Positions 23,108 through 40,504 of a stretch of DNA of 64,000 nucleotides are shown in pieces. The DNA comes from Chryseobacterium nakagawai (GTDB lineage: Bacteria; Bacteroidota; Bacteroidia; Flavobacteriales; Weeksellaceae). Made by a program: the position numbers and the translations under genes. Below the pieces are notes generated by a model. It had not been told where the DNA came from. It worked only from the letters and a program-made list of their open reading frames with translations, and did no database searches. The stretch is from positions 3,464,501 to 3,528,500 of the forward strand of contig NZ_LR134386.1 in the NCBI RefSeq assembly GCF_900637665.1. The letters are read 5' to 3'. Each line of letters begins with the position of its first letter. Position 1 is the first letter of the stretch.

Positions 23108-23303
23108 AGAAGTTAAAATCAATAATTAGTTACGGATACTTTAGCTTCAAAAATACTCACAATATTTCGAAAAACAGTAATTTTTAAAGGATAATCCTTA
23201 AGAATTCCGTACCACATTTTACGTAAAAAAAATCAATGGCATAAGGATTGAAACTGTTTATAATATTTTAAGAAAAGCGCTCTAATTTATAAAAAAGCAA
23301 ACT

Positions 23304-24980: not shown

Positions 24981-25036
24981 CAAAATGGATAAAAAATAAA
25001 TTTCAACATGTAGTAAATTGATATATATGGCATTAA

Positions 25037-25142: not shown

Positions 25143-25662
25143 TTTTAAAGATAGCTTAATTGAAATCGATACACATTTGTTAGGTGCGTGCCTAAAACCG
25201 GCAACTTTTGCTAATTTCTATACCCACGCTTCACAAAATGAGTTGACAAATAATACTATCGCATTAGAAAAAGCGAATTCATTTAGTGTCGATAAAACAC
25301 TTGAAAATCCATTCTCTTATTTTAACCATTTTTATTCGGATCGGATCAAAAGCAAAAATTGCCTGCTACAATCCGAACTCAATGATATACATTCAACAAA
25401 CGGAACCATCAGCATTTATGATCTGGCAAAAAAGAATTTTACAACCGTAAGACAGCTGGAGCGGAATTTTAAAAAGCTAATTGGGTTATCGCCAAAAGAA
25501 TATTCGAACATTATCCGTTTTCAGAATGCTCTGAATTTAATCAAAAATCCGAAGCTAAACCGCAGTTTATTAGATATTGCATTTGAATGTGGATACTACG
25601 ATCATTCACATCTTAGCAATGAGTTCAAACGCAATACGGGGCTTTCACCATCATCATTTTAA
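25135..25662 (+). CDS. AraC-family regulator fragment (C-terminal part)
   Basis: The 175-residue frame has an AraC DNA-binding domain at its end (ISIYDLAKKNFTTVRQLERNFKKLIGLSPKEY, then LLDIAFECGYYDHSHLSNEFKRNTGLSPSSF). Family members of this type are about 260-280 residues long. The first 90-100 residues of the sensor domain are absent. The frame begins at the right junction of the IS21-like end, so the gene was probably truncated by insertion or deletion. The DNA-binding half is intact. The DHFR-like gene 73 bases downstream is its probable former target. Confidence 0.65.
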   Translation: MNSFKDSLIEIDTHLLGACLKPATFANFYTHASQNELTNNTIALEKANSFSVDKTLENPFSYFNHFYSDRIKSKNCLLQSELNDIHSTNGTISIYDLAKKNFTTVRQLERNFKKLIGLSPKEYSNIIRFQNALNLIKNPKLNRSLLDIAFECGYYDHSHLSNEFKRNTGLSPSSF

Positions 25663-25703
25663 TTTTGTCGCATTTTTACAAAGTGTAGTTCGCAACGTAA
25701 AAG

Positions 25704-25711
25704 TAATTTTG
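25704..25711 (+). promoter_or_regulatory. -7 promoter element of DHFR-like gene
   Basis: TAATTTTG matches TAnnTTTG and lies 24 bases upstream of the ATG at 25736. Confidence 0.5.
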
Positions 25712-25735
25712 CTGAAACATTAAAATTCAAAACAA

Positions 25736-26275
25736 ATGCGAAAAATATCACTTTTTATTGCAATGAGTTTGGACGGATACATTGCAAAATCAAACGATGA
25801 TCTGAGTTTCTTGAAACTTGTAGAAAAAGCAGGAGAAGATTATGGGTATGAGGAATTTACCTCCCAAATTGACACCATAATTATCGGAAGGAAGACATAT
25901 GATTATGTCCTTAGCGAAATTGGGGCGTCTCATTATGACAACGGACAACGAGATGTATATGTCATAACAAGAACTGAGAGACCGCAAGTAGGTAGAACGA
26001 TTTTCTATACAGGCAGCTTAACAGAATTAATTGACCGTTTGAAATCAGAAAATGGTAAAAATATCTATTGTGATGGTGGCGCAGAAGTAATCAATGACCT
26101 ATTGAAGCAGGGCTTAATAGATGAATTTACAATCTCGGTAATTCCAGTTTTGTTGGGTGACGGAAAAAGGCTTTTTAAAGATGGAAGACCCGAACAGGCA
26201 CTTAAATTCATTACAGCAAAAACATTTGAAACTGGTTTGACGCAACTACATTATAAGCGCAATAGCAAACAATAA
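25736..26275 (+). CDS. Dihydrofolate-reductase-family protein (RibD C-terminal type)
   Basis: The 179-residue cytoplasmic protein matches the small RibD-C/DHFR-like reductases. It has FIAMSLDGYIAKSNDD at the start, then IIIGRKTYDYVL, VITRTERP, the NADPH loop YCDGGAEVINDLLKQGLIDEF and IPVLLGDGKRLF. It probably reduces a pteridine-like or other small substrate with NADPH. A role in riboflavin synthesis is not implied. It has its own promoter and follows a truncated AraC regulator, so its former control may be lost. Confidence 0.88.
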   Translation: MRKISLFIAMSLDGYIAKSNDDLSFLKLVEKAGEDYGYEEFTSQIDTIIIGRKTYDYVLSEIGASHYDNGQRDVYVITRTERPQVGRTIFYTGSLTELIDRLKSENGKNIYCDGGAEVINDLLKQGLIDEFTISVIPVLLGDGKRLFKDGRPEQALKFITAKTFETGLTQLHYKRNSKQ

Positions 26276-26566
26276 GCAACAGGTTATATTTACGCTGCTT
26301 TATTATAAAAAATTCACTTTAACAGAATTAAAAAATTCATCTATTCTAAATTTGACGATCTAGTAATGCAATCTATACGACGCTAATATTACGAATCGAA
26401 GACACAGCTATAATTTATAAAACCACGCTTTAATTAAAATTATTTATTCTCATACGGTTGGAAAAATACAGATAATTTCCTACTATCGCTCATATTTTGA
26501 ATGCATAATTATTTTCAAAGTCATAACAAATAACAAATTAATATCATTAAGTCCAGATATTTTTTC
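26276..26566. other. Intergenic region between convergent genes
   Basis: This stretch of about 290 AT-rich bases has no gene or strong hairpin that I can see. Confidence 0.4.
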
Positions 26567-28789
26567 CTAATTTCCTTGAGAAGCCGCATTCAAATAATCA
26601 TCACTGATATCTTTTTCCTTTTTAAAATCTTTTCCAAACTTATAACTGAAACTGATCCCGAAAGAACGGAGTGGTAAATAACGGACAGAAGATGAGCTGT
26701 AATCACCTGTCTCAACAGTTGTCGCCTGTTTGATATACTTGTTGAAAGGATTGGTTGTTGTAATTCCAATACTTGCTTTTTTATTCCAGAACTGTTTTCT
26801 CGCCGCAATACTATAAGTGATCGACTGTGGATTTTTACCCTGAATATTTTTCGCCGCAGAATTAAAATTCCCAAATGCTTCTACGATAAAATCTGTTGGA
26901 AATAAGTAATTCAGATTTAAATTCAGGCGGTAACGCATTCCCATATCAACGTTCCCAAAATAATTACTGACAATATATCGGTGAAAAACCATCATATTAC
27001 CACGAAGATTTAATTTATTATTTAAAAAAGCAACAGAACCTGACAATATTCCACCAGAATTATATTCCTTGCCGATGTTATCTCTTCTGGTTACTGAAAC
27101 ATTTGTATAATCTGTCCCGCTTACCGTATAAATTGGGTAAAAAGTAGTGATTTGTTTCAGATCCTGACTGTTGATCCTTTCTGTAAGGGTGAATGAAAGG
27201 TTAGCGCCGTTTTCAAAATTCTTATTGTAACCTAATTCCATATTATCCCCTATTTCCGGCTTTAGTGCAGGATTTCCTGTTGTGATATTATGAGGATCGC
27301 TGAAATTTAAGAATGGGTTCAATTCAGCATATTCCGGTCTTTCAACTCTTCTTGTATAGGCTAATTTTATCGTTTCGCCACTGTCAAATTTATGAGACAA
27401 AATGAATGACGGCACCAGCAAACTGTATGATGGAATATTGGTATTCTGATAATCTATTTTTACCGTCGTATATTCGTAACGTGCCCCTGCTCTTACATCC
27501 AGCCAGTTATTAAATAATTTTAATGAAGAGGAAACATATGCGGCATAAACTCCCATATCATATTTCAAACGGTAAGACTGGAAAGGATCAAATTCATATT
27601 GTCTTGAAAAAGCATCCAAAACATTCACATCCGTATTTGTTGTAATGTGCTGGAAAATTGCTTTTGTACCCATTTCCAATGTAATTTGGTCATTGATCGG
27701 CTGCACATAATCGACCGACAAATTATGACTGGTATCCGTTCCCGGATTTCTCCCCGAAATACCATCATAAGGAGATAAAGCTGCTGCAAGACTTTGAGTT
27801 TGTAAATAATTACTTTTAGGTGATCCGTAGCTTACAACGAAATCTGCTGTCAATTCCTGTCCTTCTCTTTGGAATATTTTTCGATAGCTCAAATTTCCAT
27901 CAATAGAATTTACCGAAGAACGGTTGTCTGAAGCTCTGTAACCAATGATCGACTGGTCAGTTGAATTAGAAAAATCAGCAATATATTGTTGCTGATTAAT
28001 GAAACCGATGCTTTTGTTGGCAAAATCGTTGTAAGAAATGGAACCGCTTAATGTGTTCGTTTTGTTGATTGTCCAGTCAAAGCCCAATCCTGTACGATAA
28101 CCGTGTCTCTGAAAATCGGTGTAGCCGTCCTGCAATAATCGGGTTTGAGTGGTAGCTGTATGAGAAATCCTGTCTTGTGAAAAAGGTGTTCTGGATTTCA
28201 ACTGTGCATTTCCGCTGAAAAAGGTATTTAAGCTGAAATTATTATTTCTGAAGTTCAGATTTAATGAGCCCGTTTCAAAACGTGTTCCCGCAGACGCAGT
28301 GATCAATCCGTTGATGCCTTTTACTTTGCTTTCGTTCAGAACAATATTGATGATTCCGCCAGTTCCCTGCGCATCGTATTTTGATCCGGGACTAGTTATT
28401 GCTTCAATACTTTTGATCTGACTTGCAGGAATAGAAGCCAGCGCATCGGCAAGACTATTCCCAAATATGCTTGAAGGTTTTCCGTTGATCAGGAATCTGA
28501 CATTCGGATTTCCCTGTAACTCCACAATTCCGTCTGCATCCACCGTTACCTGTGGAACCTTTCTCAAAACATCAATTGCAGCTCCACTTTGTGAGGTTAC
28601 GTCATTGGCAACATTGTAGACTATTTTATCAACTTTATTTTCGACAATAGGTTTTTTTCCATTGATAATAACTTCCTGAATGGTTTTAACCTGATGGTCT
28701 TTTAAAGTGTCAGATGATTTTTTGTCTATAGTTTGAGCACAGACTAACGTTGTCGATATTAAAGCGAAAAGAATTGATAGTTTTTTCAA
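26567..28789 (-). CDS. TonB-receptor-like outer-membrane beta-barrel protein
   Basis: The 740-residue protein has a signal peptide (MKKLSILFALISTTLVCAQ). A plug-like domain follows (IQEVIINGKKPIVENKVDKI, then PNVRFLINGKPSSIF and GTGGIINIVLNES), then a long beta-barrel ending in aromatic-rich strands such as FGISFSYKFGKDF. It matches the Bacteroidota barrel family (OMP_b-brl_3) that lacks the usual carboxypeptidase-like N-terminal domain. The start appears to be a TTG at 28789; there is no in-frame ATG upstream. It carries an upstream copy of the regulon motif shared with the lipid genes. Its ligand is unknown. Confidence 0.88.
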   Translation of the reverse strand: MKKLSILFALISTTLVCAQTIDKKSSDTLKDHQVKTIQEVIINGKKPIVENKVDKIVYNVANDVTSQSGAAIDVLRKVPQVTVDADGIVELQGNPNVRFLINGKPSSIFGNSLADALASIPASQIKSIEAITSPGSKYDAQGTGGIINIVLNESKVKGINGLITASAGTRFETGSLNLNFRNNNFSLNTFFSGNAQLKSRTPFSQDRISHTATTQTRLLQDGYTDFQRHGYRTGLGFDWTINKTNTLSGSISYNDFANKSIGFINQQQYIADFSNSTDQSIIGYRASDNRSSVNSIDGNLSYRKIFQREGQELTADFVVSYGSPKSNYLQTQSLAAALSPYDGISGRNPGTDTSHNLSVDYVQPINDQITLEMGTKAIFQHITTNTDVNVLDAFSRQYEFDPFQSYRLKYDMGVYAAYVSSSLKLFNNWLDVRAGARYEYTTVKIDYQNTNIPSYSLLVPSFILSHKFDSGETIKLAYTRRVERPEYAELNPFLNFSDPHNITTGNPALKPEIGDNMELGYNKNFENGANLSFTLTERINSQDLKQITTFYPIYTVSGTDYTNVSVTRRDNIGKEYNSGGILSGSVAFLNNKLNLRGNMMVFHRYIVSNYFGNVDMGMRYRLNLNLNYLFPTDFIVEAFGNFNSAAKNIQGKNPQSITYSIAARKQFWNKKASIGITTTNPFNKYIKQATTVETGDYSSSSVRYLPLRSFGISFSYKFGKDFKKEKDISDDYLNAASQGN

Positions 28790-28808
28790 AGCGATGTTTA
28801 TGATGAGG

Positions 28809-28843
28809 CAAAAATGAAATTCAATTCTGAAAACATTTTGAAT
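28809..28843 (-). promoter_or_regulatory. Predicted regulator site plus -7-like box, barrel-protein promoter
   Basis: Two half-sites TTCAAAAT and TTCAGAAT spaced 11 bp (28823-28843, minus strand) lie 6 bases upstream of a -7-like box CATTTTTG (28809-28816). The same arrangement precedes five other transcription units in this cluster. Confidence 0.6.
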
Positions 28844-28886
28844 TCGACTAAAAAATCAAAATATTTTATAGATGACCGGATCTTTA

Positions 28887-29324
28887 TTATTTAAACGCAA
28901 GTAAAATAGTTCCGCCGATAATCAACAAAGCCCCGATCGCAGTTTTCAATGTTAATGTTTCTTTAAAAAAGAAGATTGATAAAATAATAGCAATAGCTAC
29001 ACTTAATTTATCTACCGCCGCGACTTGCGAAACTTTGCCTATCTGTAAAGCCTTAAAATAAAACAGCCAGGATAACCCAGTTGCGACACCGGAAAGGACA
29101 AGAAAAATAAGATTGAATTTTGATAATGATCCAATATCGTTAGACTCGCCTTTTATAAAAACAATGCTCCAGACCAATACCAAAATAATTACTGTTCTAA
29201 TTCCAGTTGCTAAATTAGAATTGATATTGGATACTCCCATTTTTGCAAAAATTGCTGTGAATGCAGCAAAAACAGCTGAAAGCAAGGCATAATAGAACCA
29301 CATATTTTTATTTTTTGACATCAA
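28887..29324 (-). CDS. EamA-type half-size membrane transporter
   Basis: The 145-residue inner-membrane protein has about five hydrophobic helices and the EamA-domain features SAVFAAFTAIFAKMGV at the start and GVATGLSWLFYFKALQIGKVSQVAAVDKLSVAIAIILS in the middle, ending GALLIIGGTILLAFK. Single-domain EamA proteins of this length act as dimers. Its start is adjacent to the stop of the PAP2 gene, so it is the last gene of the HD-PAP2-EamA unit. It may export a small metabolite or flip a lipid precursor; that is inference. Confidence 0.85.
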   Translation of the reverse strand: MMSKNKNMWFYYALLSAVFAAFTAIFAKMGVSNINSNLATGIRTVIILVLVWSIVFIKGESNDIGSLSKFNLIFLVLSGVATGLSWLFYFKALQIGKVSQVAAVDKLSVAIAIILSIFFFKETLTLKTAIGALLIIGGTILLAFK

Positions 29325-30119
29325 TTAAAAGGTTTTAACAAAACCAATCCCTACACTTTTATTCTGATAAAAAGGCATTACCATAGTGGCTGAATTTTGA
29401 TTTTTCCCTCCTATCAAATGATTGATTTTAGGATATAACCAATAAGCCAGTTCCGTGGAAAGAATACCGAATCCGGCTCCGCCAACGACATCTCCAACCC
29501 AATGCTTATCATTCAACATTCTGTAAACTCCCGTAAAAACAGCGATTGAATATCCAGAAATTCCGAGCCAGAAATTGGTGTCCTTGTACTCTCGGAACAT
29601 AAACTGTGCAGAGGCAAACGCAATCGCTGTATGACCTGAAGGGAAAGAAAGATTATTGGATTGATCCGGTCTTTCTTCCTTTACCATATGCTTTAATGGA
29701 ACTACAAACGCTGATGTAATCAACATCGAAGTTCCGTAAATGATACTTCTGTCACGGAAATTATGTTTTCCTTCTACCCCAAAAGCATTTAATCCATAGA
29801 CCAAAGCGGCAGGTGCGAATTGGGTGTAATTATCCAGTCTGATGTGATCCGGTTTGTGTTCATTGATCTCATCTCTAGTAGAGAAATTCAATTGTTTAAT
29901 CCCTTTTACTGACAAACTTGCAACGCCGTAGCCTATTAAGGCCGCAGGAACAATCAATCTTTTATAATTAAGATGATCTGTTTCTGTATTCAGTTCAACG
30001 ATGCTATCTTGCTTTGTTTCCTGAACCTGAATGGTATCATTACTTTGGGCAGAAATTTTTCCAAATGTTGAAAATAATATGAAAATGCTAAAAACTGTTT
30101 TTTGAGTGAATTTTGACAT
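29325..30119 (-). CDS. PAP2-family phosphatase, exported
   Basis: The 264-residue protein has a signal peptide (ending near KISAQ) and the three PAP2 motifs: KHMVKEERPDQ, LSFPSGHTAIAFAS and RMLNDKHWVGDVVGG, with the catalytic histidines in the last two. It would dephosphorylate a lipid phosphate such as phosphatidic acid, undecaprenyl diphosphate or a lipid A phosphate on the periplasmic side. It follows the HD-domain gene by 27 bases and abuts the EamA gene. A second PAP2 gene lies 2 kb upstream in the same cluster. Confidence 0.9.
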   Translation of the reverse strand: MSKFTQKTVFSIFILFSTFGKISAQSNDTIQVQETKQDSIVELNTETDHLNYKRLIVPAALIGYGVASLSVKGIKQLNFSTRDEINEHKPDHIRLDNYTQFAPAALVYGLNAFGVEGKHNFRDRSIIYGTSMLITSAFVVPLKHMVKEERPDQSNNLSFPSGHTAIAFASAQFMFREYKDTNFWLGISGYSIAVFTGVYRMLNDKHWVGDVVGGAGFGILSTELAYWLYPKINHLIGGKNQNSATMVMPFYQNKSVGIGFVKTF

Positions 30120-30146
30120 CTTATGTTTATTAATTTGATTTAAAAT

Positions 30147-30728
30147 TTATTTAGGACAATGCATCTGAATGTTGGTCTCTTTAAACTTCGAAAGAACTTC
30201 TTGACCAAAATCTGTGTAATAGGTATGTTCTGAGAGAAACCAACAGTTCTTTTTGAGCCATTCCTCGTCAGTGTAGATCAGTTTTAGAAATATTTCAAAT
30301 TCCCTTCTCAATGCCTTTTCATACTTTGGATAATTCGCTCTTGTCAAATGATACAGATCAGCATCACATAACACTTTTTCGATTAGTGAAGAAGGTTTGG
30401 GCGGATATTTTGTGGATTCAATGCAGTTTAAAACTGAACTGATAAAACCGTTCTCGCATCCATAGTTTTCTAAAAAATCCTTGGCTATTTTCTTACTTTC
30501 GTTTTCGTGACCGAGATATGTGTTTGCATACCCACAATCGTGGAACCAGGCAGCAACTTCTAAAGCAAGAGTTTCATTGTCAGAAAGATCGCATTGAGAG
30601 CCAATTTCTCTCGCCGCAGCAACAACTTCATAGGTATGGTTGATGTTATGAAAAACAAGCTCATTCGAAAGATTTTCTGAAAGAAACAATATCACATAAT
30701 CACGTACAGCTTCTACTAAACTATTCAT
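30147..30728 (-). CDS. HD-domain phosphohydrolase-like protein
   Basis: The 193-residue cytoplasmic protein has the HD metal-binding set: H in LVFHNINHTYEVV, HD in AAWFHDCGYA, and a later D in VLCDADLYHL. Such proteins hydrolyse phosphate esters, often of nucleotides or nucleotide second messengers. The substrate cannot be inferred. It is the first gene of an HD-PAP2-EamA unit and is preceded by a copy of the regulon motif that overlaps the end of the upstream TauE/SafE gene. Confidence 0.88.
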   Translation of the reverse strand: MNSLVEAVRDYVILFLSENLSNELVFHNINHTYEVVAAAREIGSQCDLSDNETLALEVAAWFHDCGYANTYLGHENESKKIAKDFLENYGCENGFISSVLNCIESTKYPPKPSSLIEKVLCDADLYHLTRANYPKYEKALRREFEIFLKLIYTDEEWLKKNCWFLSEHTYYTDFGQEVLSKFKETNIQMHCPK

Positions 30729-30773
30729 TAGCGGTTTTCATTATATATTTACAAAAGATGTTTTGTTGATTGG

Positions 30774-30809
30774 CAAAAGATGAGTTCTGATTTTGTAGAA
30801 ATTTTGAAT
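30774..30809 (-). promoter_or_regulatory. Predicted regulator site plus -7-like box, HD-gene promoter
   Basis: Half-sites TTCAAAAT and TACAAAAT spaced 11 bp lie at 30789-30809 on the minus strand, 7 bases upstream of a box ATCTTTTG (30774-30781). The site overlaps the last codon of the preceding gene. Confidence 0.6.
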
Positions 30810-31846
30810 CATTTCATCTCTAGCTTTGTCACTAGATTATTTCTGAAACAATAGAATTCGTAACTCGGCTCTTTTCTAAAAACAAAAACCTTCTCAATAT
30901 GAATCGTGTCAAACTTGTTTTTAAGCTGGTTGTATTTTTCCATAAGTCGATCCGGTAACTCTTCGGGAAGAATAGGCCTTTCTATTTCTAAACCTTCGTC
31001 ATAAGTATATTCCAAAACCAAGTCAGTATTCCTCCAGGAAATGATAGATTCTTTTTGGTTATTTTTTTGAACAGCCGCAAAAGTAATTTTGTCTTGTTTG
31101 ATAATTCTATTGGAGGTCCCAGCAAATAATGTCACTCCCGCAATAACCATTGCACTGTAACCAATTTTTCTGAAAATGTTTTCGCTTAAATACGGAAGGA
31201 TATATTTTACGGTATATGAAGAAATTATTGTAGCTACAGCAATCGTCAAACCCAACCACAACGCCGTATTTGAATATAATCCCAGTTCTATATAAATTAT
31301 CAACTTGATTAGATGCATAAAGATTTCATTGGCCGCTCTCGTTGCAACTATTTCTTCTTTTTTGAGTCCAAATTTTAAATAAAACCGATTAAACAAAAGT
31401 CCGATTGCACCAGTCATTCCGGATACAAAACCTGCCAGAAAGCCAACAATTGCCAAAACATATTCCGGATATGGCTTTTCCTCTTTCTCAGCAGTATTTT
31501 TAGATTTGAACAATTGAGGTAAATTGGCGATAAGAAACATAGCAACAATGAGCTGTAAATAATTGGGATTTATATATTTAATGAGATAAGCTCCGATTAA
31601 AACCGCAGGGATTGAAAATGGAACAAACCAGAAAAATATCTTCCAGTTGATGTGCTTTTTGAACACCGCAATTCTTGATGCAGAACTTGTAAAAGTCCCA
31701 ATTGTTAATGAAAAAGGTACGACAGAGGTGGGAAGCAACAGGTTTAGAATCGGAACTAATATGAGACTTGCTCCGCCACCACATATAGCGCTCAGCCAAA
31801 AAGCGAGAATAGTTCCCGAAAATAAAAGGACAATTTTTAAAATCAT
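30809..31846 (-). CDS. TauE/SafE-family permease with C-terminal extension
   Basis: The 345-residue inner-membrane protein has the two glycine-rich repeats of the TauE/SafE family (LSAICGGGASLILVPIL near residue 20 and GFLAGFVSGMTGAIGLLFNRF near 140) in about eight helices. The family moves sulfite, sulfoacetate and other organic anions. The last 75 residues form a charged soluble tail not usual for the family (RPILPEELPDRLMEKYN). It has its own regulon-type promoter. Its role in a lipid-modifying cluster is unclear. Confidence 0.85.
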   Translation of the reverse strand: MILKIVLLFSGTILAFWLSAICGGGASLILVPILNLLLPTSVVPFSLTIGTFTSSASRIAVFKKHINWKIFFWFVPFSIPAVLIGAYLIKYINPNYLQLIVAMFLIANLPQLFKSKNTAEKEEKPYPEYVLAIVGFLAGFVSGMTGAIGLLFNRFYLKFGLKKEEIVATRAANEIFMHLIKLIIYIELGLYSNTALWLGLTIAVATIISSYTVKYILPYLSENIFRKIGYSAMVIAGVTLFAGTSNRIIKQDKITFAAVQKNNQKESIISWRNTDLVLEYTYDEGLEIERPILPEELPDRLMEKYNQLKNKFDTIHIEKVFVFRKEPSYEFYCFRNNLVTKLEMK

Positions 31847-31886
31847 ATTTCTAAATAAAAGATTACACTACGTCGTATTTTAAGTA

Positions 31887-31921
31887 CAAAAATGCAATCT
31901 GATTTAGAATAAATTTTGAAT
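31887..31921 (-). promoter_or_regulatory. Predicted regulator site plus -7-like box, TauE/SafE promoter
   Basis: Half-sites TTCAAAAT and TTCTAAAT spaced 11 bp lie at 31901-31921 on the minus strand, 6 bases upstream of a box CATTTTTG (31887-31894). Confidence 0.6.
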
Positions 31922-31926
31922 TTTAG

Positions 31927-32592
31927 TTACGCTTTTGGAATGTTTTTGTCATTTTTGACGTAGAAATATCCAATAATCAAGACGCAAAAAACGCCTAGTA
32001 TAAATCCACCCAAAACATCTGTAAACCAATGCGCGCCGAGATAAACCCGAGAAACCGCTCCCAAGAAAATCATCGAAAGACAAATGATAATCAGAAATAA
32101 TTTGACCTTATACTTAATCTTTTTTAAATGAAGAATGATCAATATCAATGCACCGAAAAAAACTGTGTAAAACAAAACGTGACCGCTAGGGAAGCTCTGA
32201 TATTTTGTTTCTTCCAAAAGGACAACCAGATCTTTGGAAGGACGTGGTCTGTTGATCAGCATTTTTAGTCCTAACCCTAAAATTCCGGAAAAAAGTGTAG
32301 AAACCATCAAAACAGCTTCTTTTTTTAATCTTAAAATAAAAAAGATAAGTGAAGTTATACCGACCATTACAACCGAAACTGATGTTCTGCCAAACCAGCT
32401 CAGCCAAATCATCAGTGTATTAAGGTTAGGAGTTTGTTTTTCCTGTATTTCTTCTGAAATATGGATGTCCAAATATTCCAATGGCAGAAAGAAAACAATA
32501 CAGCTTAATATTACAAATGCAATCAAAAGCGAACCAGCCGTGGCTCGAAATAAAAGCCTTTTGTTGTTTTGCAGAAAAGTTATCAATCTCAT
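31927..32592 (-). CDS. PAP2-family membrane phosphatase
   Basis: The 221-residue inner-membrane protein has about six helices and the PAP2 motifs KMLINRPRPSKD, QSFPSGHVLFYT and VSRVYLGAHWFTDVLGG. It resembles undecaprenyl-diphosphate or phosphatidate phosphatases. The start is set at the ATG at 32592 (MRLITFLQNNKRLLF). A GTG at 32613 would extend the frame by seven codons, but it coincides with the predicted -7 box and so should be upstream of the transcript start. It sits directly downstream of the LtaS-like gene and has its own regulon-type promoter. Confidence 0.88.
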   Translation of the reverse strand: MRLITFLQNNKRLLFRATAGSLLIAFVILSCIVFFLPLEYLDIHISEEIQEKQTPNLNTLMIWLSWFGRTSVSVVMVGITSLIFFILRLKKEAVLMVSTLFSGILGLGLKMLINRPRPSKDLVVLLEETKYQSFPSGHVLFYTVFFGALILIILHLKKIKYKVKLFLIIICLSMIFLGAVSRVYLGAHWFTDVLGGFILGVFCVLIIGYFYVKNDKNIPKA

Positions 32593-32612
32593 AATTCTGG
32601 AATTATCTGACA

Positions 32613-32647
32613 CAAATTAATATCCTAATTCTGAATTAATTTTGAAT
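32613..32647 (-). promoter_or_regulatory. Predicted regulator site plus -7-like box, PAP2 promoter
   Basis: Half-sites TTCAAAAT and TTCAGAAT spaced 11 bp lie at 32627-32647 on the minus strand, 6 bases upstream of a box TTAATTTG (32613-32620). Confidence 0.6.
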
Positions 32648-32752
32648 CTCAGGTTTTAAAAATTGATTAAAATCCAAATATTGTACCCTATTAAAAATCA
32701 AAAGATCGATGATATCACCAATCTTTTGGAAGGTTTTACATCTCAGAATATT

Positions 32753-34714
32753 CTATTTTACTTTCATCTTTCCATTTTTGAATCTTACACTTGCTGTCTG
32801 ATAATAAGAAATGGTTTGAGAGGCCAATTCCTGATTTTCTGCTTTTATTTCTGATAAAGTCTGTTTTTCATTTCCTGAAACCCCAAACTGTTTTAACCTT
32901 TTTCTATCGTCAATCTGTGTGAAAATATTTCCTTTCAGCATTCCCAATGTTCTGTAATTGCCTATAAAAGCTCTTTCATCTCCAACTTTTGTTTGATTGA
33001 TGTCTTTTCCATACAAACTTGTGTTGTAATTCCAATCGAGATATCCGAATAAAGTCGGCATCAAATCGATCTGTGAAGTTAAACGATCAATTCTTGTTGG
33101 TTGTTGCTGTGGAAGATTATAAATAATTGCAGGAATGTGATGTCTGTCGATATTGATCTCCCACTTCCCGGCACTGCTTGCACAATGGTCTGCAACTATA
33201 ACGAATACGGTATTTTTAAACCAGGGTTTTGTCTTCGCATCCGCAATGAACTTTCCTAAAGCATAATCTGTATATTTCACGGCAGCATTTCTATCACCTT
33301 GCGGAAGGTCGATCTTTCCTGCTGGGAAAGTGTAAGGTTTGTGGTTGGAAGTGGTCATTACAAACTGAAAAAACGGTTTGTTTGCTTTAGCGCTTTTATC
33401 AGCGTATTTGATAGATTGATTATAAAGATCTTCATCACAGATTCCCCAGGCATTTTCAAATTTCACTTCGTTATCAGGAATTGCAAATCTTTGTGTTTTA
33501 ATCTCGTCCGCTAAAGGATTACCTCTGTTTCTGTCAACAATATCAAATCCCTGTCCACCAAAAAAGGTATTCATATTATCAAAATAACCATCGCCCCCAT
33601 AAATAAAATAGGGCTGATAATCTTTTGATTTTACAATTGTAGAAATGGAAAATAAATTCTGATTATTAGGTCTTCTTACGATGCTATTTCCCGGTGTTGG
33701 CGGAACAGATAATGTTAAAGCTTCCATCCCGCGAACGGTTCTTGTTCCTGTTGCATACAGGTTTGTAAAGAAAATACTTTCATTCGACAACTTTTCATAG
33801 TTGGGCGTAAGATGATCTTTATTGCCAAATTCTGTCAGAAAATCTGCGCTGAAACTTTCTATGGCAATAAGGATGATATTAGGTTTTTGTTCATTATTTC
33901 CTGTGGTAAGCCTTGATATATCATCATATTTTGCGGTTGTATATTTTTGATTTTCCTGTAAAAGATTCTTCTTAACTATTGAATAAGCTTCTTTTTCCGG
34001 AAGTTTCGGGTAGAAGGTTTCATAATCAAGCTCGTTTGATTTGAAGGCAGTTACAAAAGAAAAAGCACCGTTTTTCCCCAATTCATTTACCACCAAATTA
34101 TTACTGAAATCCGCCTGCTTGTTTTTCATCACCAAGCCTAAAATAATGGCAATTGCCAAAACCGGAAGTGAATAAAATAAACGATTACTGATAGAATTCT
34201 TATCAGAAAAAGTCTTTTTGAAGATATTCAGTTTTTTAAATAAAACAAATGTAAGGACGATCAATCCTACCAAAACAACTCCAATCACAGGTAAAGGATA
34301 AGACTGATTGATATTTTCGACAACTTCATAAGTGTAAATAAGATAATCTACAGCAATGAAATTGAACCTCACGCCAAACTCATCCCAAAAAGGTATTTCT
34401 GCCAAAAGGCTAAAATAAATAATATTGAAAATCAAGCTAAGATAAAAATAGGTGAAGATTTTATCGAACAAAGATCCAATCCATCTTTTCGTAAAGATCA
34501 AAAGATAAAAGGCGTAAAATGCCAAAAATAAGGAACCCATCGTCAGGTCAAAAACGAACCCTGTGAAAAAAGCCCGCAAAATATGTAGGAAATTAAGCTC
34601 AAGATCTTTTAAAGACCAGATCAGTAGTATTATCCTAATTACAAATGCTAAAAAAACATATAAACTCAGAACGCCAAACAGTGTTGAAAATCTGCCATTG
34701 AATAACTTTTTCAT
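32753..34714 (-). CDS. LtaS-like sulfatase-family phosphoglycerol/phosphoethanolamine transferase
   Basis: The 653-residue protein has about five N-terminal membrane helices (to about residue 210) and a periplasmic alkaline-phosphatase-type domain. The metal-binding start is NIILIAIESFSADFL; the nucleophile threonine lies in NLYATGTRTVRGMEALTLS. FIYGGDGYFDNMNTFFGGQGF and FVIVADHCAS complete the family set. In Firmicutes this family builds lipoteichoic acid; Gram-negative members transfer phosphoglycerol or phosphoethanolamine to surface glycans or lipid A. Its start overlaps the stop of dgkA by four bases, so the two are cotranscribed. This fits recycling of the diacylglycerol product. Confidence 0.9.
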   Translation of the reverse strand: MKKLFNGRFSTLFGVLSLYVFLAFVIRIILLIWSLKDLELNFLHILRAFFTGFVFDLTMGSLFLAFYAFYLLIFTKRWIGSLFDKIFTYFYLSLIFNIIYFSLLAEIPFWDEFGVRFNFIAVDYLIYTYEVVENINQSYPLPVIGVVLVGLIVLTFVLFKKLNIFKKTFSDKNSISNRLFYSLPVLAIAIILGLVMKNKQADFSNNLVVNELGKNGAFSFVTAFKSNELDYETFYPKLPEKEAYSIVKKNLLQENQKYTTAKYDDISRLTTGNNEQKPNIILIAIESFSADFLTEFGNKDHLTPNYEKLSNESIFFTNLYATGTRTVRGMEALTLSVPPTPGNSIVRRPNNQNLFSISTIVKSKDYQPYFIYGGDGYFDNMNTFFGGQGFDIVDRNRGNPLADEIKTQRFAIPDNEVKFENAWGICDEDLYNQSIKYADKSAKANKPFFQFVMTTSNHKPYTFPAGKIDLPQGDRNAAVKYTDYALGKFIADAKTKPWFKNTVFVIVADHCASSAGKWEINIDRHHIPAIIYNLPQQQPTRIDRLTSQIDLMPTLFGYLDWNYNTSLYGKDINQTKVGDERAFIGNYRTLGMLKGNIFTQIDDRKRLKQFGVSGNEKQTLSEIKAENQELASQTISYYQTASVRFKNGKMKVK

Positions 34715-35079
34715 AAGTAAGGATAATAGATAAGAGTGAGTAATATTAAAACTGAGATCACAGCAAATGTCATCGCTCCGGAAGCAATGTCTTTTATAAA
34801 ACCAATTTTTTTATGGTATTCAGGATGAACGAAATCGCAGAGTTTTTCCACTGCAGTATTAAGGCTTTCTGCCGTGAGAATAAGTCCAAAGCCAAATATC
34901 TGAAACATCCACTCAACTTTTGTGATTTTAAAATAGAAGCCTAAAGCGACGAAAATAACCCCGATGAAAGACTGTGTCATTATCGAATGTTCTGTTTTCA
35001 GCAACAGAAATGCGCCGTTAAATGTGTATTTAAGGCTTTTTGCTCTTCCTTTCAAAAAACTGTCATTAATATTTTTCAT
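34711..35079 (-). CDS. dgkA: Diacylglycerol kinase, DgkA type
   Basis: The 122-residue integral membrane protein has the small-DAG-kinase features: an N-terminal basic helix, three transmembrane segments, and the active-site signature AESLNTAVEKLCDFVHPEYHK with the following KDIASGAM. It phosphorylates diacylglycerol, or in some species undecaprenol, at the inner face of the membrane. Placed before the LtaS-like gene with overlapping stop and start codons, it most likely recovers diacylglycerol released when phosphatidylglycerol or phosphatidylethanolamine donates its head group. It has a regulon-type promoter 93 bases upstream. Confidence 0.92.
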   Translation of the reverse strand: MKNINDSFLKGRAKSLKYTFNGAFLLLKTEHSIMTQSFIGVIFVALGFYFKITKVEWMFQIFGFGLILTAESLNTAVEKLCDFVHPEYHKKIGFIKDIASGAMTFAVISVLILLTLIYYPYL

Positions 35080-35171
35080 ATCAATGATTTGAATTTAAAA
35101 GGCTTATTCTATGGAATTTAGCTTTTAGGCTATAGAAATAAAAGGACGATTGCATAAATTGAATTATGCAG

Positions 35172-35206
35172 CAAAACTAAAATTGAATTTTGAAGAAATT
35201 TTGAAT
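35172..35206 (-). promoter_or_regulatory. Predicted regulator site plus -7 box, dgkA promoter
   Basis: This is the best copy of the motif: two perfect TTCAAAAT half-sites spaced 11 bp (35186-35206, minus strand), 6 bases upstream of TAGTTTTG (35172-35179), a full match to TAnnTTTG. It lies between the kinase stop codon and dgkA. Confidence 0.7.
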
Positions 35207-35207
35207 T

Positions 35208-36494
35208 TTATAGTTTTACAGAAAAAATGTGCAAATTATTTTCAAATTTATAATTGATTGTCCAGTGGTGGAATTTGCAAATCTCACTGATGATGGCTAG
35301 TCCTAAACCACTTCCGCTATTGTCAGCAGAAAGCTTCGAAAATCTTTTGAATAATAGATCTGTATTTAATTTTTCAGTTCCGGAATTGGCAACTTCAAAT
35401 ACTGAATTTGTCAACTTCACCGATATTGCTCCGTCACGTGAAGTATGACGGATAGCATTCAAAATTAGGTTATTGATAAGAACTTCAGTCAGCCCGCTGT
35501 TTCCATTTACTTTAATGCCTGAAGAAATATTTTCTGTAACAGAAATATTCTTTTGTTCAAAATGTTCATTAAAGACATCAAGACTTTGGTGCAATAGATC
35601 GTCCAGCTTAATGATTTCAGAATTATCGAATTGGCTGTTATCTATTTTTGCTAATAACAAAAGGTTCTTATTAATTCTTGAACTTCTTGTTAGAGCCCGG
35701 TTCATTTCTTCTGCAATATCATATTGCCTTTCGGTAAGGTTTACATCTTGTAACAAAAGATCAAGCTTATTTTTCAAGATGGCCAACGGAGTCTGCAACT
35801 CGTGAGACGCGTTTTCTGTAAACTCTTTCTGCGATTTATAAACGGATACGTTATGAGTAATTAATTTTCGTAATGACTGATTTAATTCTTCAAATTCTGT
35901 AGTGTCTGTCTTGTCAAATTCAATCTGCGTCTGTGTGTTTAAATTAAAATTCTTCAGTTTGTCAAGTGTGTTTCTAAAAGGTTTCCAGATTGTTTTGGAC
36001 AATCTCCTGTTAAGTATAAACAACCCTGTCACGATCAAAAGAAAAAAGAAAAATGTAATGAGACCAATGATCATTACAGTGCCTTCCGTTTCCTCAATAT
36101 TGGTCTCTATGGTAAAAAGATAAGGTTGTTTTTTTATATAAATGACCTTTTTAAGACATCTGTAGCGTTCGATCGTCGGATCCGCAGAAAAAGGTTTGTA
36201 TTTTTCAGCTGTAAAAAGTGAGTCTTTCCTTAAATGATTGGAAGTTATTTTTTCAATATTGGTTCCTGGTTGGATATGATTCCACAAGGTAATACTGCTT
36301 TGTATTTCTTCTATGGAAGCATTCATTTTGTTAAATTCATAGCCTGTTTTTTCTGCAACGATCTCGTTGTGCTCGTCAAGTTCATCCTGCCATATTGCAT
36401 CGACTACGAAATAATATACTGGGATACTGAAAACCAGAACAATCATAACAAAAATTAAAAACGGTCTGGTAGTTTTACTTAATAGTGGCTTCAT
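35208..36494 (-). CDS. Sensor histidine kinase of OmpR-type two-component system
   Basis: The 428-residue kinase has a first membrane helix (about 11-31), a periplasmic sensor segment of about 110 residues, and a second helix (about 143-165). HisKA follows with NASHELQTPLAILKNKLDLLL and an ATPase domain with SGSGLGLAIISEI. The periplasmic segment is short and of no named family. It lies six bases after the response-regulator gene on the same strand and forms a two-gene unit with it. It probably senses an envelope or lipid signal. Confidence 0.92.
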   Translation of the reverse strand: MKPLLSKTTRPFLIFVMIVLVFSIPVYYFVVDAIWQDELDEHNEIVAEKTGYEFNKMNASIEEIQSSITLWNHIQPGTNIEKITSNHLRKDSLFTAEKYKPFSADPTIERYRCLKKVIYIKKQPYLFTIETNIEETEGTVMIIGLITFFFFLLIVTGLFILNRRLSKTIWKPFRNTLDKLKNFNLNTQTQIEFDKTDTTEFEELNQSLRKLITHNVSVYKSQKEFTENASHELQTPLAILKNKLDLLLQDVNLTERQYDIAEEMNRALTRSSRINKNLLLLAKIDNSQFDNSEIIKLDDLLHQSLDVFNEHFEQKNISVTENISSGIKVNGNSGLTEVLINNLILNAIRHTSRDGAISVKLTNSVFEVANSGTEKLNTDLLFKRFSKLSADNSGSGLGLAIISEICKFHHWTINYKFENNLHIFSVKL

Positions 36495-36500
36495 AATTAA

Positions 36501-37178
36501 TTACATATTTTCCCATCTATATCCCGTTCCATAAACTGTTTTCAGATAATGATCACAGCCAGCTTCATATAATTTCTTTTTAAGATTTTTGACGTGCGCA
36601 TAGACAAAGTCGTGGTTATCCAGCATATCCGCAAAATCACCGGAAAGATGTTCTGCTAAGGTGCTTTTAGAAATAACTTTATTCTTGTTTCCAATAAAGT
36701 AAATAAGAAGGTCAAATTCTTTTTTTGTAAGGATAATCGTTTGATTATTAATAGTAACAGTTTTGGCTAAAAGATCGATCTCTAATTCATTCTGCTTTAC
36801 AACATTCGAATTATTAAATTGTTTTCTTCTTATAATTGAATAGATCCTTGCCATTAATTCTGAAAGATGAAAAGGTTTTGTAAGATAATCGTCTGCCCCT
36901 AGCTTCAATCCTTTTATTTTATCATCCAGAGCATTCTTCGCCGAAATAATAATGACCCCATCCTGTTTATTCTGTCTTTTTAATTCTTCTAAAATTGACA
37001 GACCACTACCGTCTGGAAGCATAATATCTAATAAGATACAGTCATACTGGAAAGTTTCAACCTTATCCATTGCTTCACTGAAAGTAGGTGCAAATTCACA
37101 GACATAATTTTCTCCCGAAAGATATTCGGAAATACTTTTTGCAAGCTCTGTTTCGTCTTCTATGATCAGGATTTTCAT
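36501..37178 (-). CDS. OmpR-family response regulator
   Basis: The 225-residue regulator has a receiver (IIEDETE at the start; phosphoacceptor in DCILLDIMLPDGSGLSI; lysine in DDYLTKPFHLSEL) and a winged-helix output (LTKKEFDLLIYFIGNKNKVISKSTLAEHL, then VYAHVKNLKKKL and TVYGTGYRW). OmpR-type proteins bind direct repeats with about one helical turn spacing. Exactly such repeats precede six units in this cluster, including this gene. The stop lies six bases before the sensor kinase. Confidence 0.93.
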   Translation of the reverse strand: MKILIIEDETELAKSISEYLSGENYVCEFAPTFSEAMDKVETFQYDCILLDIMLPDGSGLSILEELKRQNKQDGVIIISAKNALDDKIKGLKLGADDYLTKPFHLSELMARIYSIIRRKQFNNSNVVKQNELEIDLLAKTVTINNQTIILTKKEFDLLIYFIGNKNKVISKSTLAEHLSGDFADMLDNHDFVYAHVKNLKKKLYEAGCDHYLKTVYGTGYRWENM

Positions 37179-37182
37179 TTTG

Positions 37183-37218
37183 CTAATTTATAATTGCAAT
37201 TTTGAATAAATTTCGAAT
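37183..37218 (-). promoter_or_regulatory. Predicted regulator site plus -7-like box, response-regulator promoter
   Basis: Half-sites TTCGAAAT and TTCAAAAT spaced 11 bp lie at 37198-37218 on the minus strand, 7 bases upstream of a box TAAATTAG (37183-37190). The box ends only about five bases from the start codon, so the mRNA would be nearly leaderless if this promoter is used. Confidence 0.5.
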
Positions 37219-37491
37219 TTATACAATTTTCTATATGTAGATATTGAGGAATTTTTGAAATCATAAAAATAATATTCGTAATCAATGTTAAGATTTTAAA
37301 ACTCTATATGAAGATAGTAATCTCAAAAGCGAAAATTTTAAAACAGATAGCAATCAACGATATTGGAAATAAAAAAATCAAGGATAATAAATTTTGTAGA
37401 TCAAGGTAATATAAAAATGTAAAAATATTTAATATTTCATTCTTGATAATTCTGTGATTCTTTCTAAATCTTCCACCAAATATTTCGATAT
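37219..37491. other. Spacer between regulator operon and recombinase
   Basis: AT-rich DNA without a gene. It probably contains the left boundary of the accessory region, but no attachment-site repeat could be identified. Confidence 0.35.
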
Positions 37492-39033
37492 TTATTCGGT
37501 TATGGGTACAAGACCGGAAAGAGGTGATAATTCACTATTTTTCCGGTTTTTTTTAGCTCGTAAATCATTGTTAATCTGATAGATATAGGACAACAAAACG
37601 TTAGGTCGCATAGTTCGATAATGATTTTCAAAAAATTCCAATTTTTCAGGGAATATCGAACTAATTATTTGACGTTTCAATGTGATATCCCCACTACTAA
37701 AGACTTTAGCAAGATCTACAACGTTCGATAATGCATGGTCAAGTAGTTTCGGAAAATCTATTTTGTTTTTATCTTTTACTTTGGTCAGGTTGCTTTCTAA
37801 CTTTTCAATTTTGTCCTTGCAATCAGTTTTAATTTCCAAATAATCCTCATTATCAATGATCTCTTCCAGTAATTTGTTTCGTGCCGACTTTAACCTGTTA
37901 TTCAATCCATCTATTTCCATTAATATCTTTTTTCTTTGATGTTGAGGATTATCGATAAACTTCTCAAAATTTTGTTTCAAGACCTTTCTCAAATATTTTT
38001 TAATGGACTCCCTCATTTCTAAAGCTTGTAGTAATTCCAGGAATTTATTGTTAATAATTTCTGCTTTATAACGATATCCGCATGGTGACTGACAATGGTA
38101 GTAATAATATTTCTTAGAGTATCCTGTAGATGCACTACCGGTTATTAAATGACCACATTCCGGACAGACTAGAAATCCTCTCAGGGGAAGATTATCGTCA
38201 GACAAGATTTTTACATTGGGTCTTGCAAGGTTTGCATTGCCATCCATTATATTTTGGACTTTTTCGAATAACTCCTCACTGATCAAAGGTTCATGAATAC
38301 TTGGAACAAAATGAGCCTCCTCGTCATTATATTGTTCTACATAAATTTTTCCGCAATATGCAGTATTCCTTAAGCCGGCAAGAAAAGCACTGACTTTTAC
38401 AGTTTTCCCTTCCCGCATATTCATCATATCCATGATCTGGCTGGCTGAATAAACACCTTTTGCCATCTCATTAAATGCCCATTTCATATTTGAAGCTTCC
38501 GGTTCTTTTTGAGTGACCTACTTCTTCCCATTCTCAGTGATCTTATTGACATATCCATAAGGCGCCCTTCCCATCAATCTTCCTTCTTTTCTTGCACGAC
38601 GCATTCCATAGTAGGTATTCAGGGCACGTCTGTCGTTTTCAACTTCCGGTGCAGCAAGATAGATTGCCAACATCATCTTATTCTCGGGAATTGAAAGATC
38701 CAAAGGTTGTTCAATGGCTTGCGGATCAACGTGGAGCTTTTTGAGCATATTGATCATTTGATAGGCATCACCTGCGTTTCTGCTAAAACGATCCCATTTT
38801 GTAAACAACAATAAGTTGGTTCTGGAGCTCTTTTTCTTAAGTGTATCTAGCAGTTTGATCCATTCAGGCCTGTTAAAGGTTTTGGCTGAATAATCTTCAT
38901 AAATGACCTGTCCAACTACGATACTGTTATTTTCACAGTATCGTCTCAGTCTTTCTTCCTGATCTCTTTGGGAATATCCTTTATCTGCCTGCTCATCGGT
39001 TGAAACACGAATGTATAAATCGGCTTTTTTCAT
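37492..39033 (-). pseudogene. Large serine recombinase split by an in-frame amber codon
   Basis: Residues 1-171 form the resolvase catalytic domain (YIRVSTDEQADKG with nucleophile S11; LLLFTKWDRFSRNAGDAY). The second part (about 180-513) is the recombinase domain, the zinc ribbon FLVCPECGHLITGSAS...YYHCQSPCGYRY, and a coiled coil. The two parts are in the same frame and are separated only by one TAG at 38518-38520 followed by VTQKEPEASNMKWAF, which fits the family. So a single nonsense mutation has broken a 513-residue recombinase, unless the codon is read through. Such enzymes integrate and excise mobile elements. Confidence 0.82.
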
Positions 39034-39051
39034 CTCTACAATCTTAAAATA

Positions 39052-39213
39052 TTATTCATCTAAAAACTCCCTTATTGTGACTGTCAATAGCATTTTTAGA
39101 AATTCTACAATTTGTTCAGCTTCCTCAATAGTTAACTCAATTTCCTCCTCTTCTTTGAGAATTTTGATAATCTCTTCAGTGCTTATATTTTTAATTTCAA
39201 TGTTCTTTTCCAT
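39052..39213 (-). CDS. Small acidic protein upstream of recombinase, 53 residues
   Basis: The frame encodes a glutamate- and isoleucine-rich peptide (MEKNIEIKNISTEEIIKILK at the start, VTIREFLDE at the end). It ends 19 bases before the recombinase start on the same strand. Its amino-acid pattern is that of one or two amphipathic helices. No family is recognised. Tight coupling to the recombinase suggests an accessory or regulatory role. Confidence 0.5.
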   Translation of the reverse strand: MEKNIEIKNISTEEIIKILKEEEEIELTIEEAEQIVEFLKMLLTVTIREFLDE

Positions 39214-39303
39214 ATAACCGAAATCTTTTAAATAAAAATATTCGGCTAATCCAACAACTATTAATTAATGTATTTAATTGATACACTTGGCTTAGATGTG
39301 CTT

Positions 39304-40194
39304 TTACTCTTGAATTTCAAAATATTTCAGAATGGCATTGTAGTTATCTTGGGCAGTTAGGCAGGTATCAAGAAGATAACCTCTAATATTTTCCCATTCC
39401 TGTAATCCTCTGTAATAAAATAGCTTTAGCTCTTCATCAATAATAAATGGAATAACGTTGTTAGCTAAGCATTCTTTAAACATAATCAATCTGCCAACAC
39501 GACCATTTCCGTCTTGAAAAGGGTGAATAATTTCGAACTGATAGTGAAAGGCAATAATGTCCTCAATGGTTTTATTTTCAATATCGTTGTATTCAGATAA
39601 AATCTCTTTCATTCTAGTTGCTACTTTGCCCGGTGCTGTAGTTTCATTACCTCCAACTTCATTCGGCAATTTCTTGTATTCCCCAACATTAAACCAGTCT
39701 TTAGCACTATCAGATGTTCCGGACTTTAGTAAGAAATGAAGCTCTTTTATTAATGATTCAGTTAATTTTGATTTAGCCTTATCAATTATGAGATCAATAG
39801 CTCTAAAGTGATTTGTAGTTTCTATTATGTCATCTACATTGATACTTTCCTTCGAAACCCCGACCGTATTTGTTTCAAAAATATATCTTGTCTGATCTAA
39901 TGTTAGCCTACTTCCTTCTATTCTATTTGAGTTGTACGTCAGATCGATCTGGGTTCTGTGATAAATGCCGCCCTTGAGCTTCATTTCTTTCTCTTCCTTC
40001 AGTTTGTTCAGCAAAGGATTTTTACTAAACTTCTTTTTACTTTCTTTTGAAGGAGGAAGCGCATCCTCTGGAATATTATAGGTTTTACCAGTTAAGAACG
40101 AACCGTTAATCCTGCCATGCGCACAGTAATTCCTGACAGTTCTTTCAGGTATGTTCCATTTTTTGGAAAATTCTGCTACTGATATATATTTCAT
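39304..40194 (-). CDS. Fic-domain protein with N-terminal helix-turn-helix and inhibitory helix
   Basis: The 296-residue protein has an N-terminal MerR/excisionase-like helix-turn-helix (KWNIPERTVRNYCAHGRI, about residues 12-29). The inhibitory motif SxxxEG (S89 to G94, SNRIEG) lies before the Fic core, which has the complete active site HPFQDGNGRVGR at 224-235. Fic proteins transfer AMP or other nucleotide parts to proteins; the inhibitory glutamate E93 marks an autoinhibited class II-type enzyme. The DNA-binding end suggests autoregulation. It is divergent from the SIR2-Argonaute gene across a 310-base spacer. Confidence 0.92.
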   Translation of the reverse strand: MKYISVAEFSKKWNIPERTVRNYCAHGRINGSFLTGKTYNIPEDALPPSKESKKKFSKNPLLNKLKEEKEMKLKGGIYHRTQIDLTYNSNRIEGSRLTLDQTRYIFETNTVGVSKESINVDDIIETTNHFRAIDLIIDKAKSKLTESLIKELHFLLKSGTSDSAKDWFNVGEYKKLPNEVGGNETTAPGKVATRMKEILSEYNDIENKTIEDIIAFHYQFEIIHPFQDGNGRVGRLIMFKECLANNVIPFIIDEELKLFYYRGLQEWENIRGYLLDTCLTAQDNYNAILKYFEIQE

Positions 40195-40243
40195 AAGATT
40201 CTAGATAGCCTTCATCGGCAAAAATTACACAATTTTCACGATG

Positions 40244-40251
40244 CAAATATA
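40244..40251 (-). promoter_or_regulatory. -7 promoter element of Fic gene
   Basis: TATATTTG on the minus strand matches TAnnTTTG, 50 bases upstream of the ATG at 40194. An inverted repeat TGCCGTTATTGGCA at 40260-40273 lies just upstream, near the -33 position, and could be the operator of the Fic protein's own helix-turn-helix. The rest of the 40195-40504 spacer shows no gene. Confidence 0.5.
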
Positions 40252-40504
40252 AGTTTTTTTGCCGTTATTGGCATAATAAATAATAAATAGCACAACCCCT
40301 AATTAAAAAATCCAGATATATTTACGGGAAACCTTACACACAATTTAATTTTTGTTCTTAGTCTAGAACACTAAAAGAATTATTTCTACTATATGATATT
40401 TAAATTTTCTGTCATTAAAAATATTAAAACCTGTAAAAATTTTATACTATATTTATCAACATAAAAATGCAGAGGCCACGCTAAAAAATAGGATTATACA
40501 ACCC

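Follow-up and report, generated by a model that had tools for sequence, protein, structure and literature searches.

The window analyzed here is a stretch of 64,000 nucleotides of the Chryseobacterium nakagawai genome (contig NZ_LR134386.1, positions 3,464,501 to 3,528,500), in which six transcription units on the minus strand share a tandem DNA box, TTCAAAAT-N3-TTCAAAAT, a 19-mer core with 16 fixed letters, in their promoters. One of these units encodes an OmpR-family response regulator (RR) and a sensor histidine kinase (HK), and the others encode predicted cell-envelope proteins (Table 1). Many genomes show the motif at this spacing and promoter position and in association with this RR, and the evidence gives good support to reading the cluster as an autoregulated OmpR-type regulon. 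The cell-envelope genes behind the six promoters very probably form one regulon, and we hold it to be highly likely that the boxes are operators of the RR, which would be phosphorylated by the PorY-family kinase and would activate all six units to remodel the envelope; that the RR binds the boxes, and that it does so to activate rather than to repress, we infer from the evidence given below. The box amounts to an operator code that can be put to the test. The two-component system concerned is carried by 102 of 148 sampled genomes of the same genus and ties together envelope genes, and in related genomes the box allows regulon members to be predicted.

A tandem box at six promoters

The six sites are the top six matches on both strands of the window and the only ones that reach 15 of the 16 fixed letters, the runner-up having 14. 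They lie where the preliminary description of this stretch had placed six double half-sites 11 bp apart on the minus strand. In 200 dinucleotide shuffles of the window, matches of at least 15/16 arose with a mean of 0.055 and a maximum of 2. Half-sites with up to one mismatch form six pairs at spacing 11 on the minus strand and no more than one at other spacings from 5 to 40, and on the plus strand of the window there is no such pair at spacing 11. Chance or AT-richness as the origin of the boxes is ruled out by the shuffles together with the single preferred spacing.

Placed by the usual spacing of -33 and -7 elements, the core occupies the position of the -33 box, and no TTG can be read inside it. 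TTTG begins 11 bases past the core in the dgkA, PAP2a, TauE and outer-membrane protein (OMP) promoters; the RR promoter has TTAG at offset 12, and the HD promoter, whose -7 box is the weakest, has TTTG at 12 but its best score at offset 11 (Table 1). Scores against TAnnTTTG, a -7 consensus documented for Flavobacterium psychrophilum (PMC9723704), range from 4 to 6 of 6 over the six promoters. The distance of 6 or 7 bases between site and -7-like box that had been noted earlier is the same arrangement, counted from a 21-base site.

In the mechanism that we propose, the kinase encoded at 35208-36494 would phosphorylate the RR, and two RR monomers would bind head-to-tail on two TTCNAAAT half-sites, which at a spacing of one helical turn (11 bp) would present the same DNA face at the place of the -33 element. 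The bound RR would place RNA polymerase on the TAnnTTTG-like -7 box 11-12 bases downstream and would switch on its own operon together with the dgkA-LtaS, PAP2, TauE, HD-PAP2-EamA and outer-membrane-barrel units. The envelope would then be remodeled upon an envelope signal, in its lipid head groups, diacylglycerol recycling, outer-membrane proteins and export. LtaS-like transferases release diacylglycerol, DgkA can turn diacylglycerol back into phosphatidic acid, and PAP2 enzymes strip lipid phosphates; to judge from gene content, barrels, PepSY-like proteins, efflux and TauE would complete such an envelope response, and the roles of the individual enzymes are predicted in the same way. The regulon had been described at first as one for envelope lipids. 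Its genes are envelope genes, but that label is too narrow, because DUF347, PepSY-like, Omp85, TolC-MFP-RND and TauE genes are boxed as well.

Distribution of the box among relatives

For a view of its conservation, we took the best 80 of 352 RR loci from a collection of one genome per species; these loci are interrelated, and since one of them (L039) repeats the DNA of the window, its six sites are not independent. When a box is counted as at least 13 of 14 fixed positions within the 95 bp upstream of the RR start, it is present in 78 of the 80 RR promoters, often 38-39 bp upstream of that start. At a spacing of 11 bp there are 146 pairs of TTCNAAAT, and no other spacing scanned (8-40) has more than 9; six altered half-sites used as a control never gave more than 5 pairs at any spacing. 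All but one of the pairs (145/146) are on the RR strand, and TTTG follows them at offset 11 in 66 cases and at offset 12 in 6, with no more than 5 at any other offset. In a set of 78 distinct RR promoter sequences chosen for having a box, the -7 element is at offset 12 in 45 cases and at offset 11 in 29. Two loci (L184 and L186) and the barrel promoter of another (L154) have a third half-site that continues the 11-bp register, as expected when binding runs along one DNA face.

The genes of these loci differ in how often they carry the box, which was sought from -160 to +90 of each open reading frame (ORF). The comparison set consists of ORFs of at least 100 aa that match no reference protein, a mechanical rather than curated choice, and contains 4 boxed ORFs in 846 at 13/14 and 13 in 846 at 12/14. 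The concern that the motif might strike random DNA as often as these promoters is thus answered by 4/846 as compared to 78/80. Over the same interval the box accompanies 78 of 79 RR genes (one being too near the locus end), all 7 Omp85 genes, 8 of 9 PepSY-like genes, 17 of 30 DUF347 genes and 2 of 4 TolC genes. Conservation of the sites before orthologues of the window genes, which the preliminary description had named as a test, is likewise found (L039 included): LtaS 20/23, DgkA 3/3, TauE 17/27, OMPb, the window-type OMP, 3/5, HD 4/11 and PAP2a 1/4. No box was found in this interval for HK (0/76), RND (0/7), EamA (0/6) or MFP (0/4), as expected of genes inside operons, nor for other two-component ORFs (0/4), Rce1 (0/1) or WD40 (0/1).

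Box and regulator also go together at the level of whole genomes, in the genus and in the order, which supports the regulon proposed at the outset. A first search pattern, which fixed the TTTR distance and kept the center narrow, proved too strict, with matches in 3 of 120 family genomes, and was replaced by a strict box plus TTTG pattern, with the RR called at E up to 1e-80. In 148 same-genus genomes this pattern occurs in 75, at 92 places, and a reversed control pattern gave 6 matches; both box and RR are present in 73, the box only in 2, the RR only in 29 and neither in 44 (Fisher p 1e-15, ignoring relatedness). One of the two box-only genomes has its site within an ORF (G166), and the other (G205) has one box upstream of an RR with a seemingly interrupted frame and another upstream of LtaS. 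In 25 of the 29 RR-only genomes the box was sought again, with the fourth letter allowed to vary in each half-site; 22 of them, G204 and G221 included, have an RR-adjacent box at 15/16 that the strict pattern had missed. For a set of 246 genomes at the level of the order, the corresponding numbers are 18 with both, 4 with the box only, 9 with the RR only and 215 with neither (p 3e-17, ignoring relatedness), and all four box-only sites fall within predicted ORFs.

Of the 92 same-genus places, 81 are no more than 12 kb from the RR, all on the RR strand, which leaves 11 others. Distant sites 625 kb from the RR (G137), 1.42 Mb from it (G145) or on a different contig (G160) are upstream of the same target families: the first belongs to a satellite cluster of OMP, PAP2a, PepSY-like and HD-PAP2b-EamA genes, and the other two to clusters in which HD-PAP2b-EamA adjoins RND pump genes. 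Among the 11 others, the sites in G166 and at G000:415157 fall within ORFs, and G205 is the genome with the interrupted RR.

In three more genomes of this group (G135, G200 and G141) a box is upstream of a unit encoding a 130-aa protein, thioredoxin, ApbE, DUF3570 and VIT1. In loci L156, L157 and L158 a boxed 130-138-aa protein with no Pfam match is followed by thioredoxin-like, ApbE, DUF3570 and VIT1 genes (Pfam set from L158), which hints at a connection with metals or redox. We rejected this unit as a target of wide conservation, with a relative of the 130-aa protein in 58 of 148 genomes and a box in 3 of 30 loci, the same three as before; it is at most a lineage-specific regulon member.

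Probable readers of the box

The 5.6-Mb genome from which the window comes has 12 box matches with up to one mismatch, eight of which are the window six and two at a second RR locus. None of the remaining four is convincing as a regulon site: one is within an ORF, one lies across a start codon, one is upstream of the gene for ribosomal protein L20 and has no TTTG at 11-12, and one is near same-strand ORFs that are all short and overlap a longer opposite-strand ORF. The second RR (C1:3041650-3042318, at 3.04 Mb) is 88% identical to the window RR and has an identical recognition helix; its locus (L153, G000:C1:3038000-3056000) includes kinase, TauE, DUF347, OMP and PAP2b genes, with boxes upstream of the RR and of TauE. 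The earlier statement that the cluster has no other such regulator is therefore true of the cluster and not of the genome, which has this paralogue with the same helix and box. The boxes are probably operators of the paralogous RR as well, and cross-regulation between the window and native systems is possible.

That the boxes are read mainly by the native RR, or by both RRs in one cross-wired regulon, is an alternative that we regard as conceivable yet rather doubtful, and it is compatible with the proposed mechanism. In its favor are the identical recognition helices and the same box in the two RR promoters, the native one having an exact 16/16 match. Most of the 102 RR-bearing genomes, however, show one RR match at the threshold used, and many of these are boxed, so that one RR suffices there.

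The window RR as reader of the boxes is also in keeping with how slowly the regulator and its site change together: box and recognition helix are kept down to about 60% RR identity. The helix DFVYAH[VI]KN[LM]KKK[LM] is the sole form in 109 RR rows of at least 75% identity (94 distinct sequences, with some species represented twice). Among 12 order-level RR loci (57-71% identity, one 87%), nine have an RR-promoter box of at least 12/14, seven of these at least 13/14, and its position is -38/-39 in eight and -73 in one (L234). In the corresponding position, paralogues at 63-68% (L166-L168) have repeats with 11-bp spacing but altered letters (TCCA... and TTCAG..., judged by eye).

Several observations weigh against this reading. 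The box of the RR promoter falls below threshold in two of the 80 loci (L104 with 9/14 and L118 with 12/14), and three of the 25 RR-only genomes checked (G020, G043 and G211) have no RR-adjacent box of the relaxed form, a looser 11-bp variant being visible by eye in the first two. At greater divergence, the RR promoter is without a box in two loci at 57-58% (L223 and L224), which retain a 14/14 box only downstream of the kinase, and in a third (L226); the promoters of the paralogues at 59-60% are without one as well. PAP2b is boxed in 4 of 56 cases and OMPb2 in 11 of 43 (-160 to +90), as would suit operon-internal genes. Both the p values and the counts overstate independence, since the genomes are related to one another and the sets partly share members. 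Finally, the background in the host genome at two mismatches is high: there are 123 matches as compared to 45 for the reversed pattern, and the bare consensus is therefore unspecific at that level; 13 of the 18 such matches inspected (L021-L038) are within ORFs.

Repression by the same RR is unlikely. A box over the -33 region is compatible with blocking of the promoter, but the core has no -33 TTG, the distance to TTTG is near-fixed, and tandem boxes adjoining the -10/-7 element are typical of OmpR/PhoB-type activation. We consider it very improbable that RNA polymerase or a sigma factor reads the box as a core-promoter element or AT-rich stretch unrelated to the RR: for all its A+T richness and fixed distance to the -7 box, such an element would be expected at many promoters, but box presence follows the RR, and a general promoter element is rejected by the 4 boxed ORFs in 846.

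Activation by the RR through the tandem boxes would be of a textbook kind. In PhoB/OmpR tandem-box activation, head-to-tail half-sites about 11 bp apart replace the upstream promoter element; the window has this 11-bp head-to-tail layout, whereas its half-site and promoter consensus differ. The kinase passes the family model of PorY, from the PorXY system of Porphyromonas gingivalis, but its operon partner is an OmpR-type DNA-binding RR (PF00486) and not of the PorX type, PorX being a CheY-PglZ response regulator that is not known to have a Trans_reg_C domain. The ColRS system of Pseudomonas resembles the window system in its OmpR-subfamily RR, its two direct repeats and its theme of membrane homeostasis, and among the genes that ColRS controls are dgkA, one for a putative PAP2 enzyme and several of the outer membrane; it belongs to another phylum, and by inspection the ColR consensus, (T/C)(T/C)NA(C/G)NN(T/C)TTTTT(C/G)AC, is unlike TTCNAAAT-N3-TTCNAAAT (PMC2689224). 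According to PMC9603813, PhoPR of the flavobacterium Riemerella anatipestifer likewise has a DNA-binding RR that binds its own promoter and has mainly membrane genes as direct targets; its most conserved letters are TTTAACA, a core that inspection does not find in the tandem box, and it has 583 peaks and an own-operon site at -156 to -121. Among the matches listed in a search of titles and abstract starts of open-licence PMC papers the box is undescribed, and its letters matched no paper; the passages of PMC10197871 have nothing on this box. In these searches of open-licence PMC papers we have not found this regulator, box or mobile regulon described.

Genes of the cluster and the probably mobile DNA around it

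Genes were assigned by Pfam and NCBIfam profile searches (Table 1). The RR has both a receiver and a winged-helix Trans_reg_C domain, in agreement with the OmpR-type regulator described before, and aligns over its full length to 1kgs. It fails every NCBIfam cutoff for named RRs, CpxR and others, among the matches listed (25 of 95), with scores of 176 for RppA (cutoff 250), 166 for PmrA (330), 155 for PhoB Bacteroidetes (270) and 113 for RprY (370). A structural model of the kinase (mean pLDDT 76, pTM 0.42) has a long helix, a small mixed domain, a second long helix and then the catalytic part, and was judged too weak for a fold search. The nearest solved chain to the LtaS-like protein is 3lxq (E 5e-68), LtaS chains being weaker, and PAP2b is below the LpxE model cutoff (31 bits vs 177).

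Table 1. Promoter elements and genes of the boxed cluster
Feature	Position	Strand	Evidence
Tandem box, RR-HK promoter (putative autoregulation site)	37199..37217	-	15/16
-7-like box TAAATTAG, RR promoter	37183..37190	-	TTAG 12 past core; 5/6
OmpR-family RR, 225 aa	36501..37178	-	PF00072 99.3 bits (cutoff 30.2), PF00486 57.7 bits (cutoff 26.2)
Sensor HK, 428 aa	35208..36494	-	HisKA + HATPase_c; NF052314 PorY family 429 bits (cutoff 350)
Tandem box, dgkA-LtaS promoter	35187..35205	-	16/16
-7 box TAGTTTTG, dgkA promoter	35172..35179	-	6/6 to TAnnTTTG
DgkA-type diacylglycerol kinase	34711..35079	-	PF01219 99.9 bits
LtaS-like sulfatase-fold membrane protein, 653 aa	32753..34714	-	PF00884 145 bits
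Tandem box, PAP2a promoter	32628..32646	-	15/16
-7-like box TTAATTTG, PAP2a promoter	32613..32620	-	5/6
PAP2 phosphatase a	31927..32592 (start 32592 or 32613)	-	PF01569 86.8 bits
Tandem box, TauE/SafE promoter	31902..31920	-	15/16; native TauE paralogue boxed as well
-7-like box CATTTTTG, TauE/SafE promoter	31887..31894	-	5/6
TauE/SafE-family membrane protein	30809..31846	-	PF01925 115 bits
Tandem box, HD-PAP2b-EamA promoter	30790..30808	-	15/16
Weak -7-like box, HD promoter	30774..30781	-	TTTG 12 past core, read from sequence; best score 4/6
HD-domain protein	30147..30728	-	PF01966 29.2 bits
PAP2 phosphatase b	29325..30119	-	PF01569 59.7 bits; N terminus signal-peptide-like by eye
EamA-type membrane protein, single EamA repeat	28887..29321	-	PF00892 82 bits
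Tandem box, outer-membrane barrel promoter	28824..28842	-	15/16
-7-like box CATTTTTG, barrel promoter	28809..28816	-	5/6
OMP_b-brl_3 outer-membrane barrel protein, 740 aa	26567..28789	-	PF14905 266 bits

The cluster is part of DNA that the window shares with Epilithonimonas lactis at about 96-100% identity from a left edge at ~24870 to at least 55760 (99.2% over 26504-40229, ~100% over 24870-31000 and 100% over 40135-55760); left of it, the longest E. lactis match (15867-23174) is at 71%. In E. lactis the shared DNA is split over two contigs, which meet at about 40.1-40.2 kb. The recombinase-Fic stretch (38001-40287) is present there twice, at 96% on one contig and 99-100% on another. The joining of regulon and transfer genes is thus seen in the window and not in E. 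lactis. Like conjugative transposons of the CTnDOT type, the window has genes for TraG (PF19044, 693 bits), TraJ (PF07863, 60 bits), TraM (PF12508, 133 bits) and DUF4138, of which TraJ, TraM and DUF4138 are within the shared DNA and TraG (58238-60673) is outside the stretch compared with E. lactis; it differs from them in that its transfer genes have as a neighbor in the shared DNA an envelope regulon that includes a two-component system of its own. The window copy of the regulon probably moved between genera, most likely by means of a conjugative element, and the transfer that brought it was likely recent, in which case a whole envelope regulon has been carried in DNA that moved between genera.

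A much smaller package is found in seven loci (L103, L107, L110, L113, L114, L117 and L118) whose records are named after different classes, with the names Pedobacter, Cyclobacteriaceae, Ignavibacteria, Rhabdobacter, Shiella, Bacteroidia and Cecembia, three of which are metagenome-assembled genomes in which binning errors are possible. These have in common a block of 3.6-3.7 kb, box-RR-kinase-box-Omp85, at 87-93% DNA identity, and the match stops at the edges of the block (about 9911-13608 in L117 and 94-3672 in L118); it is a minimal self-contained regulon with sharp edges. As a speculation somewhat short of an even prospect, we suggest that the system may be a portable, plug-in regulon, in which box, RR and kinase are combined with exchangeable boxed effectors (LtaS, DUF347, TauE, PAP2, RND pump, Omp85 and barrels). 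It would move as a working package by conjugation and other lateral transfer, in the present case between genera and in the L103 group between classes. Effectors would join it by gaining the 19-bp box, and the window genome would run native and element-borne copies on one box code.

A large serine recombinase (37492-39033) adjoins the RR and is apparently split into two reading frames, one with the resolvase domain (38518-39033) and one with the recombinase and zinc ribbon parts (37492-38487), and a group II intron reverse transcriptase is encoded, like TraG, just past the stretch 24870-55760. A 1054-aa protein (40505-43669) matches PADLOC models of SIR2-type prokaryotic Argonautes over its full length (1543 bits; SIR2_2 in Pfam), and this Argonaute-like protein is likely a defense gene within the shared mobile DNA.

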